Below, in pieces: positions 45,596-51,535 of a DNA stretch of 64,000 nucleotides. The translations under genes were made by a program, and so were the position numbers. The notes under the pieces were generated by a model, which did not search any database, was not told the DNA's origin, and was given only the letters and a program-made list of their open reading frames with translations. The DNA comes from Candidatus Nitrososphaera gargensis Ga9.2 (GTDB lineage Archaea > Thermoproteota > Nitrososphaeria > Nitrososphaerales > Nitrososphaeraceae), in NCBI RefSeq assembly GCF_000303155.1, contig NC_018719.1, forward strand, positions 2,294,001 to 2,358,000, written 5' to 3'. Each line of letters opens with the position of its first letter. The first letter of the stretch is position 1.

Positions 45596-46024
45596 CTAGC
45601 GCATTGTCTTTAGTATGATTACGGTGTTGGTATCAGACACGCCCTCTATCTTGCGGATATCATCTATGCACTTGTTTATCTCGGCTATAGATGGAGCCGC
45701 AATTATCGCAGCAATGTCGTACTGGCCTGTTATTTCGTAGACCACTTCGACGCCGCCAAGCTTCATGAGCCTGTTGGACACGGCCGAGGTATCCGCGGTC
45801 GAAGCCACGGAAATCAGCGTTATGGCGCTTGTCTTGTCACTTGCGCCAAGCTCGATCGTAAAGCGCTTGATGACCCCGCTGTCCACCAGATTCTTGACCC
45901 TCCGGCGTACGGCCGATTCTGAAAGCCCTATTTCATTTGCGATCTCGACAAATGCTTTGCGGGAATCTGCCTGCATGATGTGGAGTATCTTCTCATCTGT
46001 CTCATCGATGTTAGCTGATGACAT
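45596..46024 (-). CDS. Lrp/AsnC-family regulator (LysM-like)
   Basis: 142 residues. HTH at 10-60 with NEIGLSESAVRRRVKNLVDS, then a RAM effector-binding domain (70-140, TLISVASTADTSAVSNRL, TGQYDIAAIIAA). Overlaps the 3' end of lysJ by 14 bases, so it ends the lysY-lysZ-lysJ-lrp operon. LysM of Sulfolobus, an Lrp-type protein, controls lysine genes; by analogy this protein may bind the GGTCA modules at 49115 and 51476. Confidence 0.85.
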   Translation of the reverse strand: MSSANIDETDEKILHIMQADSRKAFVEIANEIGLSESAVRRRVKNLVDSGVIKRFTIELGASDKTSAITLISVASTADTSAVSNRLMKLGGVEVVYEITGQYDIAAIIAAPSIAEINKCIDDIRKIEGVSDTNTVIILKTMR

Positions 46025-47195
46025 TCCTTCTCTTTTCCTCGCTAGTTAATACAGCGTCCATTATATCAACTGCGCGGGAAACCGTCGTTTCATCCATTAC
46101 AAGTGGCGGAAGGAGTCTTATAATGTTCCTTCCCGAGTACAACATAAGCAGTCCGTTGCGAATTCCGTCAAAGAGCACATCCTTTACCTCGAAGCGAAGC
46201 TCTACCCCGATCATCATGCCAAGGCCTCTCACCTCGCGGATTATCTTGTGCTTCTCTTTCAGCCGATTCAGGCCCTCTCTCCAGTGCCTGCCCATCTTGG
46301 CGGCGTTTTCAACAAGCTTGTCTTCGGTCAGCGCTTCAAGCGTCGCAGTGCCTGCAGCGCACGCTATCGGGCTCCCGCCAAAGGTTGACGAATGCTCGCC
46401 AAGCTTTGTCGCTTCCATTATCTCCCGCTTTGCCAGTATAAGACCCATCGGTATTCCGCCAGCGATCCCTTTTGCAAGGCACATGATGTCCGGCGTAGTG
46501 TTCCAGTTCTGCCCTGCCCACATCTTGCCTGTCCTGCCAAGGCCTGCCTGGATTTCGTCAAATATCAGGACGAGATTGCGCCTGTTGCAGATCTCTCTTA
46601 TCTTTGGCAGTAGGTCGTCTGGCGGCACAATGATGCCAGTCTCACCCTGTATCGGTTCCAGAATCACAGTTCCGATTGTGTCGTCGATGGCTTCTTCCAG
46701 CTTGCCTGGGTCGCTGTAGGGAACGAACTTGACTCCGTCCAAGAGCGGCATGAATGATTTGCGATACTTTTCATTGTAGGTTACAGAAAGCGCGCCAAAC
46801 GTCTTGCCGTGGTACGCGCCATTCATTGCTATTACGCCATGCTTGCCCGTATATTTGCGAGCAAACTTGAGCGCGCCTTCCACAGATTCGGCGCCACTGT
46901 TTGTAAAGAACATTTTGGTCAATCCTGGCGGCACCACAGTCGACATCTTGTCCATGAACTTTAGCCGAGTGTCATTGTATACAGACATGTGGGCGGTAAT
47001 GAGCATATCTGCCTGCTTTTTGATCGCAGCCACCACTCTGTCGTTGCAGTGGCCGACGAGTGCGACGCCATAGCCTCCCATGCAGTCAATGTATTCCTTG
47101 CCCGCGGTGTCCCACACTCGTGCGCCCTTGCCCCTTGCAAGGTTCACCGGGAACCTCTGGTAAAGTGCTGCCAGGTGCTGATCTTCGCCGTTCAT
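46011..47195 (-). CDS. lysJ: Acetylornithine/LysW-lysine aminotransferase
   Basis: 394-residue class III PLP aminotransferase. It moves an amino group to the LysW-bound semialdehyde, in lysine and/or ornithine synthesis. PLP lysine in CLAKGIAGGIPMGLILAKRE near 255; IFDEIQAGLGRTGKMWAGQ precedes it. Its start overlaps lysZ by four bases and its end overlaps lrp by 14. Whether it serves lysine, arginine or both cannot be read from the sequence. Confidence 0.9.
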   Translation of the reverse strand: MNGEDQHLAALYQRFPVNLARGKGARVWDTAGKEYIDCMGGYGVALVGHCNDRVVAAIKKQADMLITAHMSVYNDTRLKFMDKMSTVVPPGLTKMFFTNSGAESVEGALKFARKYTGKHGVIAMNGAYHGKTFGALSVTYNEKYRKSFMPLLDGVKFVPYSDPGKLEEAIDDTIGTVILEPIQGETGIIVPPDDLLPKIREICNRRNLVLIFDEIQAGLGRTGKMWAGQNWNTTPDIMCLAKGIAGGIPMGLILAKREIMEATKLGEHSSTFGGSPIACAAGTATLEALTEDKLVENAAKMGRHWREGLNRLKEKHKIIREVRGLGMMIGVELRFEVKDVLFDGIRNGLLMLYSGRNIIRLLPPLVMDETTVSRAVDIMDAVLTSEEKRRNVIS

Positions 47196-47995
47196 TTTGG
47201 AGTTATCACCGTGCAGTTATTGTGAGCAATGGCCGAAGAGATGGGGTTTTCAACCTGGCCGGAGGCAATTATCGCTTCCTTGACACCCATCTCAAGCGCC
47301 TCTGTGCAGGCAAGCACTTTCTTTTCCATGCCAAAACCTATCTTGGGCAGAGCCGCCTTTGCCTGCTCCAGAGTCATTGCGGTCACCAGCTTTTCGTTGA
47401 GTATCAGCCCGTTGACGTTTGTGATGAATATCACCTTGTCTGCCTTGACGCCGCCTGCGACGTATGCCGCCGCCCTGTCACCGTCGACATTCAGGAAATC
47501 GTATTCTTCGCTCAGCGCGATTGGCGACACTACCGGCACGAAGCCGTTGTCAACCAAGTTGTGTACCAGCGCCGGGTCGACTGCATTTATCTTGCCTGTA
47601 TAGCCGCCGTCAATCATCATCTTTCTCCCTTTTTCATTTATTATCAGCAACTTTTTCTTGCGCTCGGCTTTCAATATGCCGCCATCAATCCCGGCGATCC
47701 CTACAGCCTTGATGCCTTGGCGCAGGAGCATGCCTGTGATTGCCTTGTTTATCTTGCCTGACATGACCATTGTGTAAATGTCTGCAGTCTCTTTGTCAGT
47801 ATACCTGCTGCGCACTCCGCCTGGCGACACTATGAACTTTTGCTCCTTGCCCAGCTTTGTCGCAGTCGCGGTCACCTCCTTGCCGCCGCCGTGCACAAAG
47901 ACAAGCTTGTCCTTTTCAGTGATTGCCTTGATGTCTGCAAGGGTCGAGGGGTGCAGCCCGTCGACTACGCTTCCGCCTATCTTGATGACTATCAT
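47192..47995 (-). CDS. lysZ: LysW-aminoadipate/glutamate kinase
   Basis: 267-residue amino-acid kinase of the ArgB/LysZ family that phosphorylates the side-chain carboxyl of LysW-linked aminoadipate or glutamate. MIVIKIGGSVVDG at the start and FVHGGGKEVTATATKLG near 33-50 are the phosphate-binding segments. It overlaps lysY and lysJ by four bases each. Confidence 0.91.
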   Translation of the reverse strand: MIVIKIGGSVVDGLHPSTLADIKAITEKDKLVFVHGGGKEVTATATKLGKEQKFIVSPGGVRSRYTDKETADIYTMVMSGKINKAITGMLLRQGIKAVGIAGIDGGILKAERKKKLLIINEKGRKMMIDGGYTGKINAVDPALVHNLVDNGFVPVVSPIALSEEYDFLNVDGDRAAAYVAGGVKADKVIFITNVNGLILNEKLVTAMTLEQAKAALPKIGFGMEKKVLACTEALEMGVKEAIIASGQVENPISSAIAHNNCTVITPK

Positions 47996-49047
47996 ACCGG
48001 TGTCAGCGGAGTGTATTTCAGCCCTTCAGTTTCGTCATAGCCGGACATTACGTTCATGACCTGTATTGCAGAGCCGGCAGCGCCCTTCATGAGGTTGTCA
48101 GAAGCAGAAAGTGCCACTATCCTCTGGTTGTACTCGTCAATGTCAAAGCCCACATCGCAGAAGTTAGAGCCTACCACGAACTTGGGATCAGGGAACTTGT
48201 AAAGTCCCTTCTTGTCGCGGATCAGGCGCACGAATGGTTCGCCCTTGTACGAGTTGCGATACATCTTCCACAGCTCAAGCTCTTCTACCTGCCTCTTCAG
48301 GAACGTATGGTTCGTAGTCAGTATGCCTCTTACGATGTTGACTGCGTGGGGGCTCATGCTCACCTTGATCTGCTTTTTCGCTATCATTGACAGCTCTTGC
48401 TCTATTTCGCCGGTGTGCCTGTGCTTTGCCGGCTTGTACGGCCTGACGACACCATAGCGCATGGCATGGTGGGTGCCGGCGTTGGCCTTCTGGCCTGCGC
48501 CTGACGAGCCAATCTTGCTGTCCACTACGACGTGGTCGGTGTCAATAAGGTTGTTTTCAATCAGCGGCTTGAGCGCAAGGAGCGATGTCACTGCCATGCA
48601 GCCGGGGCACGACACCAGTTGCGCCTTCTTGATCTCTTCGCGGTGGAGCTCTGGCACGCCATAAACAGACTTGCTCAGCATGTCGGGAAAAGGATGCTCC
48701 CAGCCGTACCACCTGACATAGTCCTTTGGGTTCTTTAGCCTAAAATCAGCCGATAGGTCGATTACCTTCATCCCCCTGTCGTAGAGGTCCTTGACTATCT
48801 TGTTTGCCTTGCCGTGCGGCACCGACGTGAACACGAGGTCGCACGAGTTTGCCAGCTTTTCCGTGTCCATCGGCGAGAAGGTAATGTCAATGAATCCCTT
48901 CAAGCTTGGGTGGACGCGGTGCACGTACTCGCCGGCCTTTTGCCGCGACGTGACCATGTTCACCTCCACCTTTGGGTGAGTGACCAGCAGCCGAAGCAGC
49001 TCTCCTCCTACATATCCAGAAGCGCCAACTACTCCAACTTTCATCAT
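47992..49047 (-). CDS. lysY: LysW-aminoadipyl/glutamyl-phosphate reductase
   Basis: 351-residue NADPH-dependent reductase of the ArgC/LysY family. Rossmann loop VGVVGASGYVGGELLRLL at 3-20; catalytic Cys in VSCPGCMAVTSLLALKPL near 147; the His loop near SPHAVNIVRG. It opens the second operon of the cluster. A TATA-like tataaaat (about 49086-49093 on the minus strand) and the GGTCA module lie upstream. Confidence 0.91.
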   Translation of the reverse strand: MMKVGVVGASGYVGGELLRLLVTHPKVEVNMVTSRQKAGEYVHRVHPSLKGFIDITFSPMDTEKLANSCDLVFTSVPHGKANKIVKDLYDRGMKVIDLSADFRLKNPKDYVRWYGWEHPFPDMLSKSVYGVPELHREEIKKAQLVSCPGCMAVTSLLALKPLIENNLIDTDHVVVDSKIGSSGAGQKANAGTHHAMRYGVVRPYKPAKHRHTGEIEQELSMIAKKQIKVSMSPHAVNIVRGILTTNHTFLKRQVEELELWKMYRNSYKGEPFVRLIRDKKGLYKFPDPKFVVGSNFCDVGFDIDEYNQRIVALSASDNLMKGAAGSAIQVMNVMSGYDETEGLKYTPLTPV

Positions 49048-49114: not shown

Positions 49115-49174
49115 CATTTATATTTTTTGGTCAGATATGACCTAATGCAGGTCAATATTGACCAATTTTGGTCA
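49115..49174 (-). promoter_or_regulatory. 60-bp GGTCA regulatory module, copy upstream of lysY
   Basis: Contains the TATA-like CATTTATATTTTTT at 49115-49128 followed by three dyads: GGTCAGATATGACC (49129-49142), GGTCAATATTGACC (a perfect palindrome, 49150-49163) and GACCAATTTTGGTC (49159-49172). It aligns without gaps with the copy at 51476-51535. It lies between the lysX stop and the lysY start, so it can serve as an operator-promoter for the lysY operon. Confidence 0.8.
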
Positions 49175-50038
49175 TCACTTCTTGGCAAGCTTGACAGCAT
49201 AGTCTATCATTGCACCGGGGATGTCGGTCTTTGATACGCTGGCGGCGCCATGGAACTCGACTGTGTTATTCACTTCGTGAACAATTAGCCCACGCTTTTT
49301 ATCCTCCATCATGTCCACGCCCAAGATGCCGCCGCCGACAGCTTTTGCAGCTTTTATCGCCAGATCCTCAAGCTCTTTTGTTATCGGCGCAAGCTCGGCC
49401 TTACCTCCGCGGGCGACATTTGTGCGAAACTCATTTTCAGCAGAATAGCGGTAGATCGCGGTGACTACCCTGTTGCCCACCACTATGCATCTGATGTCCC
49501 TCGGCGGCCTGTCAATCATTTCTTGGACATAATAGATACGGGCAAGTGGGCTGTCGTCCTCTTCTCTCATTTCCACAATCATGCCGGCGGTCTCTTCGTC
49601 GCGCAGCGGGAATACTCCCCTGCCCCACGAGCCCACGATCGGCTTGAGCACCAGTGGAAAGCCGGCCTTGCGTATTGTTTCAAGCGCGCCTTCGGCGCTG
49701 AACGCAAACTGCGTTCTAGGGGTCGGGATGTTGTTCTCTGCCAGCACGAGCGAAGTTATCAGCTTATTGCCGCAGGTCTCAGCCACTTTGAACTTGTTTA
49801 TTATGTTAAAGCCCAAGTGCTCAAGGCAGGCAGTGAGGTACAGCCCCCGGTAGTGGCTCACGCTCCTCTGCATAATGACGTCGCCGAAGGTAAAATCCTT
49901 CTTTTTGCTGTCCGTGCTTACTGTCACCGTCTTGGCATCCACTATCTGCGCCTTTACACCCTTGCTCTGCGCTTTCTCGTACAGAACCTTCTCTTCAAAG
50001 CGCACCTTATCATAAATAATAGAGAGCTCTACCACCAT
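49175..50038 (-). CDS. lysX: LysW ligase LysX/ArgX (ATP-grasp)
   Basis: 287-residue ATP-grasp enzyme that joins the amino group of aminoadipate or glutamate to the C-terminal residue of LysW. ATP-grasp elements: FPLVLKPIVGSWGRGVFPL near 129-147, the IYYVQEMIDRPPRDIR region near 173 and EVNNTVEFHGAASVSK from 255. Its start overlaps the lysW stop as TAATG. Substrate specificity (lysine or arginine branch) cannot be fixed by eye, though argG in the same operon points to arginine. Confidence 0.9.
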   Translation of the reverse strand: MVVELSIIYDKVRFEEKVLYEKAQSKGVKAQIVDAKTVTVSTDSKKKDFTFGDVIMQRSVSHYRGLYLTACLEHLGFNIINKFKVAETCGNKLITSLVLAENNIPTPRTQFAFSAEGALETIRKAGFPLVLKPIVGSWGRGVFPLRDEETAGMIVEMREEDDSPLARIYYVQEMIDRPPRDIRCIVVGNRVVTAIYRYSAENEFRTNVARGGKAELAPITKELEDLAIKAAKAVGGGILGVDMMEDKKRGLIVHEVNNTVEFHGAASVSKTDIPGAMIDYAVKLAKK

Positions 50039-50217
50039 TATTGTCCCCAGTCTTCGCCTACTGTTTCAGCCGGCTTCAGCTCCACCTTGTCGCCACTCTT
50101 TGAGGCGATCTCGTAGTCGCCGCCGCAGTCGGGGCATGTCACTATTTCCCCTACTACCGCGTCTTCTGGAACGCTGATGTCGGCTCCACATTCTTGGCAT
50201 TCAACTTTTGATTTCAT
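50038..50217 (-). CDS. lysW: LysW amino-group carrier protein, C-terminal Gln
   Basis: 59-residue carrier that holds the growing substrate through its C-terminal residue. Zinc ribbon: Cys in VECQECGADISV and VTCPDCGGDYEI. It ends EDWGQ, followed by TAA. The usual family ending is EDWGE or EDFGE, where the last Glu is the attachment site. Here the last codon is CAA (Gln). Start is ATG 50217; it overlaps argG by four bases and lysX by one. Confidence 0.92.
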   Translation of the reverse strand: MKSKVECQECGADISVPEDAVVGEIVTCPDCGGDYEIASKSGDKVELKPAETVGEDWGQ

Positions 50218-51449
50218 TTTTTTCCTCCTTTTTGTTGTTGTTTCTTGTCTGAAGAAGTTGTTGCATCTGCAGCCACCGAGTTTGCGATGATAGACTGCAG
50301 GCCCCACAGCTCAACGAATCCCTTTGCCAGGCTCTGGTCAAAGGTCGACCCGGCGGCATAAGTCGCCAAGTCATTTTTGTATAGTGAATATTTCGATTCC
50401 CTGCCAACCACCCGGAGAGACCCTTTTTGCATCTTCAGCTTGACTTTTCCGGAAACTCGGACCTGAGTCGCATCTATAAACTTATCCAAGTCATTGCGCA
50501 GTGGATCCTGCCACAGCCCAGAGTATGCAAGCCAGCTCCACTGATCGTCGACCATCCGCTTGAATGCAAGTTCGTGCTTTGTCAGCACCATCTTTTCCAA
50601 ATCTTTATGGGCTTCGATTATCGTGACTGCTGCCGGCGCTTCATAGACCTCCCTTGACTTGATGCCGACTACACGGTCTTCGATGTGATCGACGATTCCA
50701 ACGCCGTGCGCGCCGGCCTTGTCGTTGACGTATTGTATCAGGTCAATGAGGGGCATGCGCTTGCCGTCGGCGGCTACCGGCACGCCCTTCTCAAATTCAA
50801 TCTCGACGTATCCGGCCTTGTCGTTCTGGAAGTTGATGTACTGGAACGCCTCTTCTGGCGGCTCAAAGTCGGCATCCTCTATGTTGCCGCCTTCAACAGC
50901 CCTGCCCCAGAGGTTTAGGTCGATGCTATATTTCTTGGCCTCGGCGCTTATAGGGATGTTCTGTTCCTTTGCAAATTTCATCTCAACGTCGCGGGTCAGG
51001 TTCATGTCCCGGATAGGCGCGATTATCTTTAGTTTTGGATTCAGCGCACGCATCGTAACGTCGAACCTTATCTGGTCGTTGCCCTTGCCTGTGCAGCCAT
51101 GCGCTATGGCAGTCACTCCTTCTCTGTTTGCAACTTCGACTACCTTTGCGGCGATCAGCGGGCGCGCAAGTGCGGTGGCAAGCGGGTACTTGCCCTGGTA
51201 CAGGCCGTTGGCCTTGATGCTTGGAACAACGTAATCATGAGCAAATTCTTCGCGGGCGTCTATGTAGATATGCTTTATTGCCCCTATTGCCTTGGCTTTC
51301 TTTTCGATCTCTTTAAAGTCGTCCTCCTGGCCGCAGTCAACCGTGACTGTTATTACATCAAGCTTGTGCAGAGTCTGTAGATACCTTATGCATACAGAAG
51401 TGTCCAAGCCCCCCGAGTAGGCCAGAACAACCTTGCCGCTATTTCCCAA
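50214..51449 (-). CDS. argG: Argininosuccinate synthase
   Basis: 411-residue enzyme joining citrulline and aspartate in arginine synthesis. PP-loop VVLAYSGGLDTSVCIRYL at 6-23; AIAHGCTGKGNDQIRFDV near 113; YSIDLNLWGRAVEGG near 175. It starts at TTG 51449 soon after a GGTCA module and reads into lysW-lysX. The last residues (KKQQQKGGKK) are a basic Gln/Gly tail. Its place with lysW-lysX suggests that the LysW route makes arginine here. Confidence 0.93.
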   Translation of the reverse strand: MGNSGKVVLAYSGGLDTSVCIRYLQTLHKLDVITVTVDCGQEDDFKEIEKKAKAIGAIKHIYIDAREEFAHDYVVPSIKANGLYQGKYPLATALARPLIAAKVVEVANREGVTAIAHGCTGKGNDQIRFDVTMRALNPKLKIIAPIRDMNLTRDVEMKFAKEQNIPISAEAKKYSIDLNLWGRAVEGGNIEDADFEPPEEAFQYINFQNDKAGYVEIEFEKGVPVAADGKRMPLIDLIQYVNDKAGAHGVGIVDHIEDRVVGIKSREVYEAPAAVTIIEAHKDLEKMVLTKHELAFKRMVDDQWSWLAYSGLWQDPLRNDLDKFIDATQVRVSGKVKLKMQKGSLRVVGRESKYSLYKNDLATYAAGSTFDQSLAKGFVELWGLQSIIANSVAADATTSSDKKQQQKGGKK

Positions 51450-51475: not shown

Positions 51476-51535
51476 CATTTATATTTTTTGGTCAGGAATG
51501 ACCTAAATCAGGGTGATAATGACCAATGCTGGTCA
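51476..51535. promoter_or_regulatory. 60-bp GGTCA regulatory module between argG and the ACT-domain gene
   Basis: Same layout as 49115-49174: CATTTATATTTTTT at 51476-51489, then GGTCAGGAATGACC (51490-51503), a weaker GGTGATAATGACC (51512-51524) and GACCAATGCTGGTC (51520-51533). Read on the minus strand the TATA part faces argG; on the plus strand TTTATATTT faces the divergent gene, whose ATG (51526) lies inside the module. It probably gives shared control of both directions. Confidence 0.8.

Follow-up and report, generated by a model that had tools for sequence, protein, structure and literature searches.

Recurrent glutamine in place of the terminal glutamate of the carrier protein LysW in Nitrososphaera gargensis and related archaea

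The carrier protein LysW of Candidatus Nitrososphaera gargensis Ga9.2 ends in glutamine at the position where experimentally studied LysW proteins have glutamate. The glutamine is no artefact: it is conserved, it recurs, and it comes with otherwise unaltered machinery. The gene, LysW1, lies on the minus strand at 50038–50217 of the window (the whole 64,000-nucleotide stretch of DNA that was analysed) and encodes an ArgW-type carrier of 59 amino acids. Its final sense codon is CAA (the complement of 50041–50043), its stop codon is TAA (the complement of 50038–50040), and the translated C-terminus reads GEDWGQ: minus-strand translation thus bears out an earlier note on this DNA, which had claimed an EDWGQ end and a last CAA codon and given no strand.

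LysW1 and its gene cluster

LysW1 shares with known LysW/ArgW carriers (NF041070, PF21344; 3vpb, 3wwl, 5k2m) its length, the EDWG of its tail and a zinc ribbon of the form CxxC...CxxC, whose knuckles, CQEC and CPDC, hold the four cysteines of the translation. It matches PF21344 and scores 96.3 bits against NF041070 (NCBIfam; cut-off 75), which places it within that family; against the older equivalog TIGR01206 it scores 40.5 bits, under the cut-off of 53.2. The gene overlaps argG upstream (ATGA) and argX downstream (TAATG) and, as is the case for known carriers, adjoins a LysX/ArgX ligase with the motif GSWGR inside an arginine/lysine cluster. The earlier note had called the rest of LysW normal in zinc ribbon, length and overlaps, and so it proved. 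The difference lies in the end itself: the solved chains 3vpb_E, 3wwl_A and 5k2m_E (three distinct sequences) finish in Glu, whereas the last encoded residue of LysW1 is Gln, so that the encoded C-terminal Glu which acts as substrate acceptor is missing. In haloarchaeal ArgW, the mutant E54A is described as requiring arginine (PMC10433800). LysW1 is filed here as a variant that is predicted to work like LysW and to carry cargo.

The adjoining ArgX/LysX ATP-grasp ligase (49175–50038, minus strand) scores 309 bits against TIGR02144 (cut-off 275.6), has GSWGR at residues 136–140 and also matches the RimK-like ATP-grasp families TIGR00768 and PF08443. Beyond it on the same strand lie the LysY/ArgC reductase (47992–49047; TIGR01850), which is the sole match over the family cut-off in this genome (G000), and two genes which we take, from their place in the conserved cluster and from general knowledge of the families, to encode the LysZ/ArgB kinase (47192–47995) and the LysJ/ArgD aminotransferase (46011–47195). 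At the end of the cluster, in a conserved position, is a gene that from its sequence we presume to encode an Lrp/AsnC-type regulator (45596–46024, minus strand); the conserved upstream neighbour of LysW1 is, again presumably and from its sequence, ArgG (50214–51449, minus strand).

A palindrome, TTTTTTGGTCAGGAATGACCTAA, is present upstream of argG (51484–51506, plus strand), with an exact copy between argX and lysY (49123–49145, plus strand): there are two matches in the window where 0.00 are expected. The sequence TTTTTTGGTCAGNNATGACCTAA occurs exactly these two times, and further GGTCA/TGACC half sites follow. The palindromes are candidate operators of the cluster, perhaps for the Lrp-type regulator at its end.

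The glutamine end in the genus and across the phylum

The gene was searched for in 18 genomes of the genus and read in 16, among them that of the window; every one of the 16 has the Gln end (G005 and G006, with one weaker LysW match each, were left out of the reading). The window's genome contains exactly two LysW genes, and the second (L032) also ends in EDWGQ, with the codon CAG; it adjoins a homocitrate synthase-type gene, LysX and LysK. The earlier note had named, as the outcome that would overturn it, a strain standing as sole exception among close relatives that all end in Glu: the genus presents the reverse.

A pattern scan covered 398 genomes of the phylum and looked for E[DE]WGQ or E[DE]WGE followed by a stop codon (the last triplet also admits TGG, and a few matches are non-stop). 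The Gln pattern was found in 90 genomes and the Glu pattern in 249. From the former, G366, G225, G118 and G128 were set aside as chance matches, together with a second match in G018, because they had no stop codon, read EEWGQ or stood without a LysW reading frame; 86 remain by hand count. These comprise 62 of the 63 genomes of family f9, all six of f1 and all four of f2, along with eight from f25, four from f30 and one each from f48 and f51. No Gln match was found in the 86 genomes with Glu matches (hand count) that belong to f18 (26), f20 (20), f35 (19), f27 (11) and f45 (10). Genus g83 is mixed, with Gln in G224 and G248 and Glu in G160, G200 and G254. What had been presented as a trait of one gene is instead a Glu/Gln switch at a single position, one that recurs among many Nitrososphaeria and, elsewhere in the phylum, in a few more families.

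A set of 194 distinct LysW genes was drawn from 240 records after 15 loci, L190, L192 and L193 among them, had been removed by hand as non-LysW. In this set 94 end in EDWGE, 93 in EDWGQ and seven in EDYGE: Glu is the last residue in 101 and Gln in 93, and no third end residue was found. Of the two tails that the earlier note had given as usual, EDWGE is indeed common, but none of the 194 genes has EDFGE; EDYGE does occur. When 80 hand-picked genomes without EDWGQ or EDWGE were searched, seven true LysW genes were obtained, all ending in EDYGE, and the remainder gave no match or other zinc ribbons. The three removed loci named above, all from family f41, have LysW-like zinc-ribbon frames with a glutamate tail that ends in Trp (EEEEEEEW, EGEEEEEW) and may be carriers that have diverged, or proteins of another kind. 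In a thin bacterial comparison of plasmid loci, with four read of 21 matches, those from Deinococcus (L212) and Streptomyces (L215) end in EDWGE, and a LysW tail was not found in the other two (L213, L214).

The counts from the genus (16 of 16), from the distinct genes and from family f9 rule out a sequencing error or a decayed gene, and we regard either as next to impossible. Decay is further ruled out by the intact reading frame, the zinc ribbon and the gene overlaps, and the option of one wrong base, which the earlier note had entertained, is excluded since the genus consistently has Gln, and other families have it as well.

LysW genes are found in two settings. The first carrier, the kind to which LysW1 belongs, comes after argG (or argH) and ahead of argX-lysY-lysZ-lysJ; the second comes after a homocitrate synthase-type gene and ahead of lysX-lysK. 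In 51 loci with both carriers, some of them possibly from one organism, the ends of the first and second are Glu/Gln in 40, Gln/Glu in five, Glu/Glu in four and Gln/Gln in two. Genus g2 has a single LysW match per genome (nine of nine genomes), Gln-ended in all three that were read and of the second type in both genomes whose surroundings were read. At two loci of this genus (L035, L048) there is no first carrier gene between argG and argX, so that a single Gln-ended carrier seems to serve both ligases, argX and lysX. Other departures are scattered: in Cenarchaeum (L118) a Gln-ended carrier occupies the argG setting, where relatives have Glu; in G178 both carriers (L180, L181) are Gln-ended where relatives have Glu, and no ArgX adjoins the carrier on contig L181; and in family f48 (L040 and L177) a LysW-LysX pair stands apart from the other pathway genes, with Gln in one genome and Glu in the other.

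Placed on the tree of the neighbouring LysX (173 rows), the terminal letter shows at least 14 Glu/Gln interchanges; with 12 long-branch rows removed (161 rows) there are 11, compared to 54 with shuffled labels. Mapped onto the LysX tree, nearby silent sites gave 16 changes (third base of the last codon), 22 (third base of Gly58, as purine or pyrimidine) and, for another, 26, and the residues at −2 to −5 before the end (the E-D-W-G tail) gave 0, 1, 0 and 0. The exchange of Glu and Gln is nearly as free as silent change, and yet no third residue is accepted. Free exchange confined to these two residues is expected if Gln reliably becomes Glu, or if the side chain need only fit in either shape.

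The ligase and other machinery

GSWGR is kept in all 86 ligases that adjoin Glu carriers and in 86 of the 87 that adjoin Gln carriers (172 of 173 in total); the motif is described as recognising EDWGE (PMC10433800). Among 647 ligase states none tracks the Glu/Gln switch, in a comparison of low power where fewer than six differing pairs cannot reach significance; the strongest state, V85, follows the switch in approximately 3.5 of 10 independent pairs. Glu and Gln carriers do not differ in gene order, and among known cluster genes within 4.2 kb none accompanies Gln carriers only. A protein of about 400 amino acids upstream of the second carrier was considered as a deamidase and rejected, because it proved to be an HMGL protein of the homocitrate synthase type.

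Exactly one LysK and one LysY exceed the family cut-offs in each of 23 genomes, whether Glu-only, mixed or Gln-only. ArgJ is absent from all 23 and DapB is over its cut-off in one, a Glu genome: judging by this gene content, arginine and lysine synthesis in these genomes probably depends on LysW. The three g2 genomes in which LysW was read have a Gln-ended carrier only, and neither ArgJ nor DapB. With a single LysY and a single LysK per genome, both enzymes must serve Glu and Gln carriers alike in Nitrosopumilus-type genomes, and service to both in the same cell argues for a common chemical form.

LysK shows no subfamily that goes with Gln: on a tree of 92 rows there are seven changes and no single clade (row L221 is to be disregarded, since it is an incorrectly chosen frame whose branch measures 8.66). 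Residues H68, D92, E122, E123, E146 and H337 of LysK are near-invariant, and we take them to be M20-type residues with the role that this implies.

Deamidation and competing readings

On balance we think it probable, if only just, that LysW is made as a Gln-ended pro-carrier, the C-terminal Gln of which would be hydrolysed to Glu after translation and before loading. Thereafter the protein would be loaded, processed and recycled as ordinary LysW, with its cargo on the gamma-carboxyl. One slow deamidation per new carrier molecule would be enough, because the carrier is regenerated every cycle. The earlier note had offered deamidation or a different chemistry: the former is the best fit, as we infer it, and the latter stands as a rival. 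In favour of deamidation, 40 of the 51 two-carrier loci have Glu first and Gln second, with a single LysY and LysK per genome. Counting against it, 62 of 63 Nitrosopumilus-type genomes keep a Gln copy, a very stable pattern which suggests that Gln in the second carrier is selected for there and not simply tolerated.

The main rival, unlikely in our view, is that LysX activates the alpha-carboxylate of the C-terminal Gln and forms an ordinary peptide bond, with the Gln side chain sitting in the usual place of the alpha-carboxylate and LysK acting as a plain carboxypeptidase. LysX is in the RimK-like ATP-grasp family, which has members that extend alpha-carboxyls at C-termini, and loading of this kind would need no deamidase and would account for the long, stable retention of Gln. 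However, there have been at least 11–14 Glu/Gln interchanges with GSWGR kept and no ligase residue tracking them, and the single LysY and LysK would need to take both linkages in one cell.

To return to deamidation, we know of no deamidase for LysW, and we are aware of no report that LysK deamidates LysW-Gln. LysK ([LysW]-lysine hydrolase, an M20 zinc peptidase), which adjoins the second Gln carrier, hydrolyses the gamma-glutamyl amide of LysW: it cuts LysW-gamma-Glu-NH-Lys/Orn, and LysW-Gln would offer it the same bond, with ammonia leaving. LysK would be the most economical candidate for the deamidating enzyme, a tentative conjecture to which we give a minor share of the total probability. 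Against it, no signal in the sequences points to LysK in particular, since those from families with Gln fall into more than one clade; and if any LysK could deamidate, then Gln would be expected everywhere, yet it is missing from all 86 genomes of the five families listed above, and whole families that have LysK show no Gln.

A similar maturation is described for mycobacteria: where Pup is encoded with Gln, Dop converts Pup-Gln to Glu and also cuts Pup isopeptides (PMC5358908). In this system, too, a small carrier has its C-terminal Gln turned to Glu before an ATP-dependent ligase uses the gamma-carboxyl, and one enzyme, Dop, removes both amide and conjugate (PMC5358908); the parallel with LysK is a chemical argument only. 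Folds and enzymes are unrelated, LysW having a zinc-ribbon fold and a ligase of the ATP-grasp type, and Pup tags proteins for degradation whereas LysW carries biosynthetic intermediates: we claim the likeness as an analogy and nothing further. The same source describes PafA as cutting Pup isopeptides while being unable to deamidate Pup-Gln (PMC5358908), which counts against LysK, since an isopeptidase need not be a deamidase.

Deamidation might instead fall to a dedicated, unlinked LysW deamidase that is not LysK and is present only in Gln-using lineages, a sub-case that we consider improbable. In its favour, only some families have Gln, which looks as though they alone possessed an enabling factor, and LysK sequences have no matching split; but the search of known cluster genes within 4.2 kb gave no candidate, and the coexistence of Gln and Glu-only genomes within genus g83 means that the factor would persist in Glu-only species too. 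The confinement of Gln bears also on mis-translation, by which Glu leaking in at CAA/CAG would give a little LysW-Glu, enough since the carrier is recycled. The carrier does act catalytically, and in archaea Gln-tRNA is obtained from Glu-tRNA(Gln) through amidation, a two-step route that is general there. Mis-translation should, however, permit Gln in every archaeal family, contrary to the five families without it, and would cost flux in genomes with a Gln carrier only: we hold it to be very improbable.

A bolder extension of deamidation, speculative and in our judgement rather unlikely, is that LysW is zymogen-like: an inactive Gln form would be primed by LysK in a convergent, Pup/Dop-like step of arginine/lysine synthesis in ammonia-oxidising archaea, and where one cell has both Glu and Gln carriers, the difference in priming would keep its arginine and lysine branches apart.

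No report of a Gln-ended LysW was found in the openly licensed literature searched, where EDWGQ goes unmentioned (mention elsewhere is possible), and the protein is apparently an undescribed variant of a known carrier. A metabolic model of a marine ammonia-oxidising relative is described as assuming ordinary LysW steps (PMC6038301). LysW is considered to need its last Glu as the point of attachment, and a widespread archaeal group has Gln there, repeatedly and reversibly. Cells with such a carrier probably convert the Gln first or use a different chemistry: with Gln in place of the attachment Glu and the rest of the machinery unchanged, the prediction is of a maturation step or a linkage that would be new to the way in which ammonia-oxidising archaea synthesise arginine and lysine.
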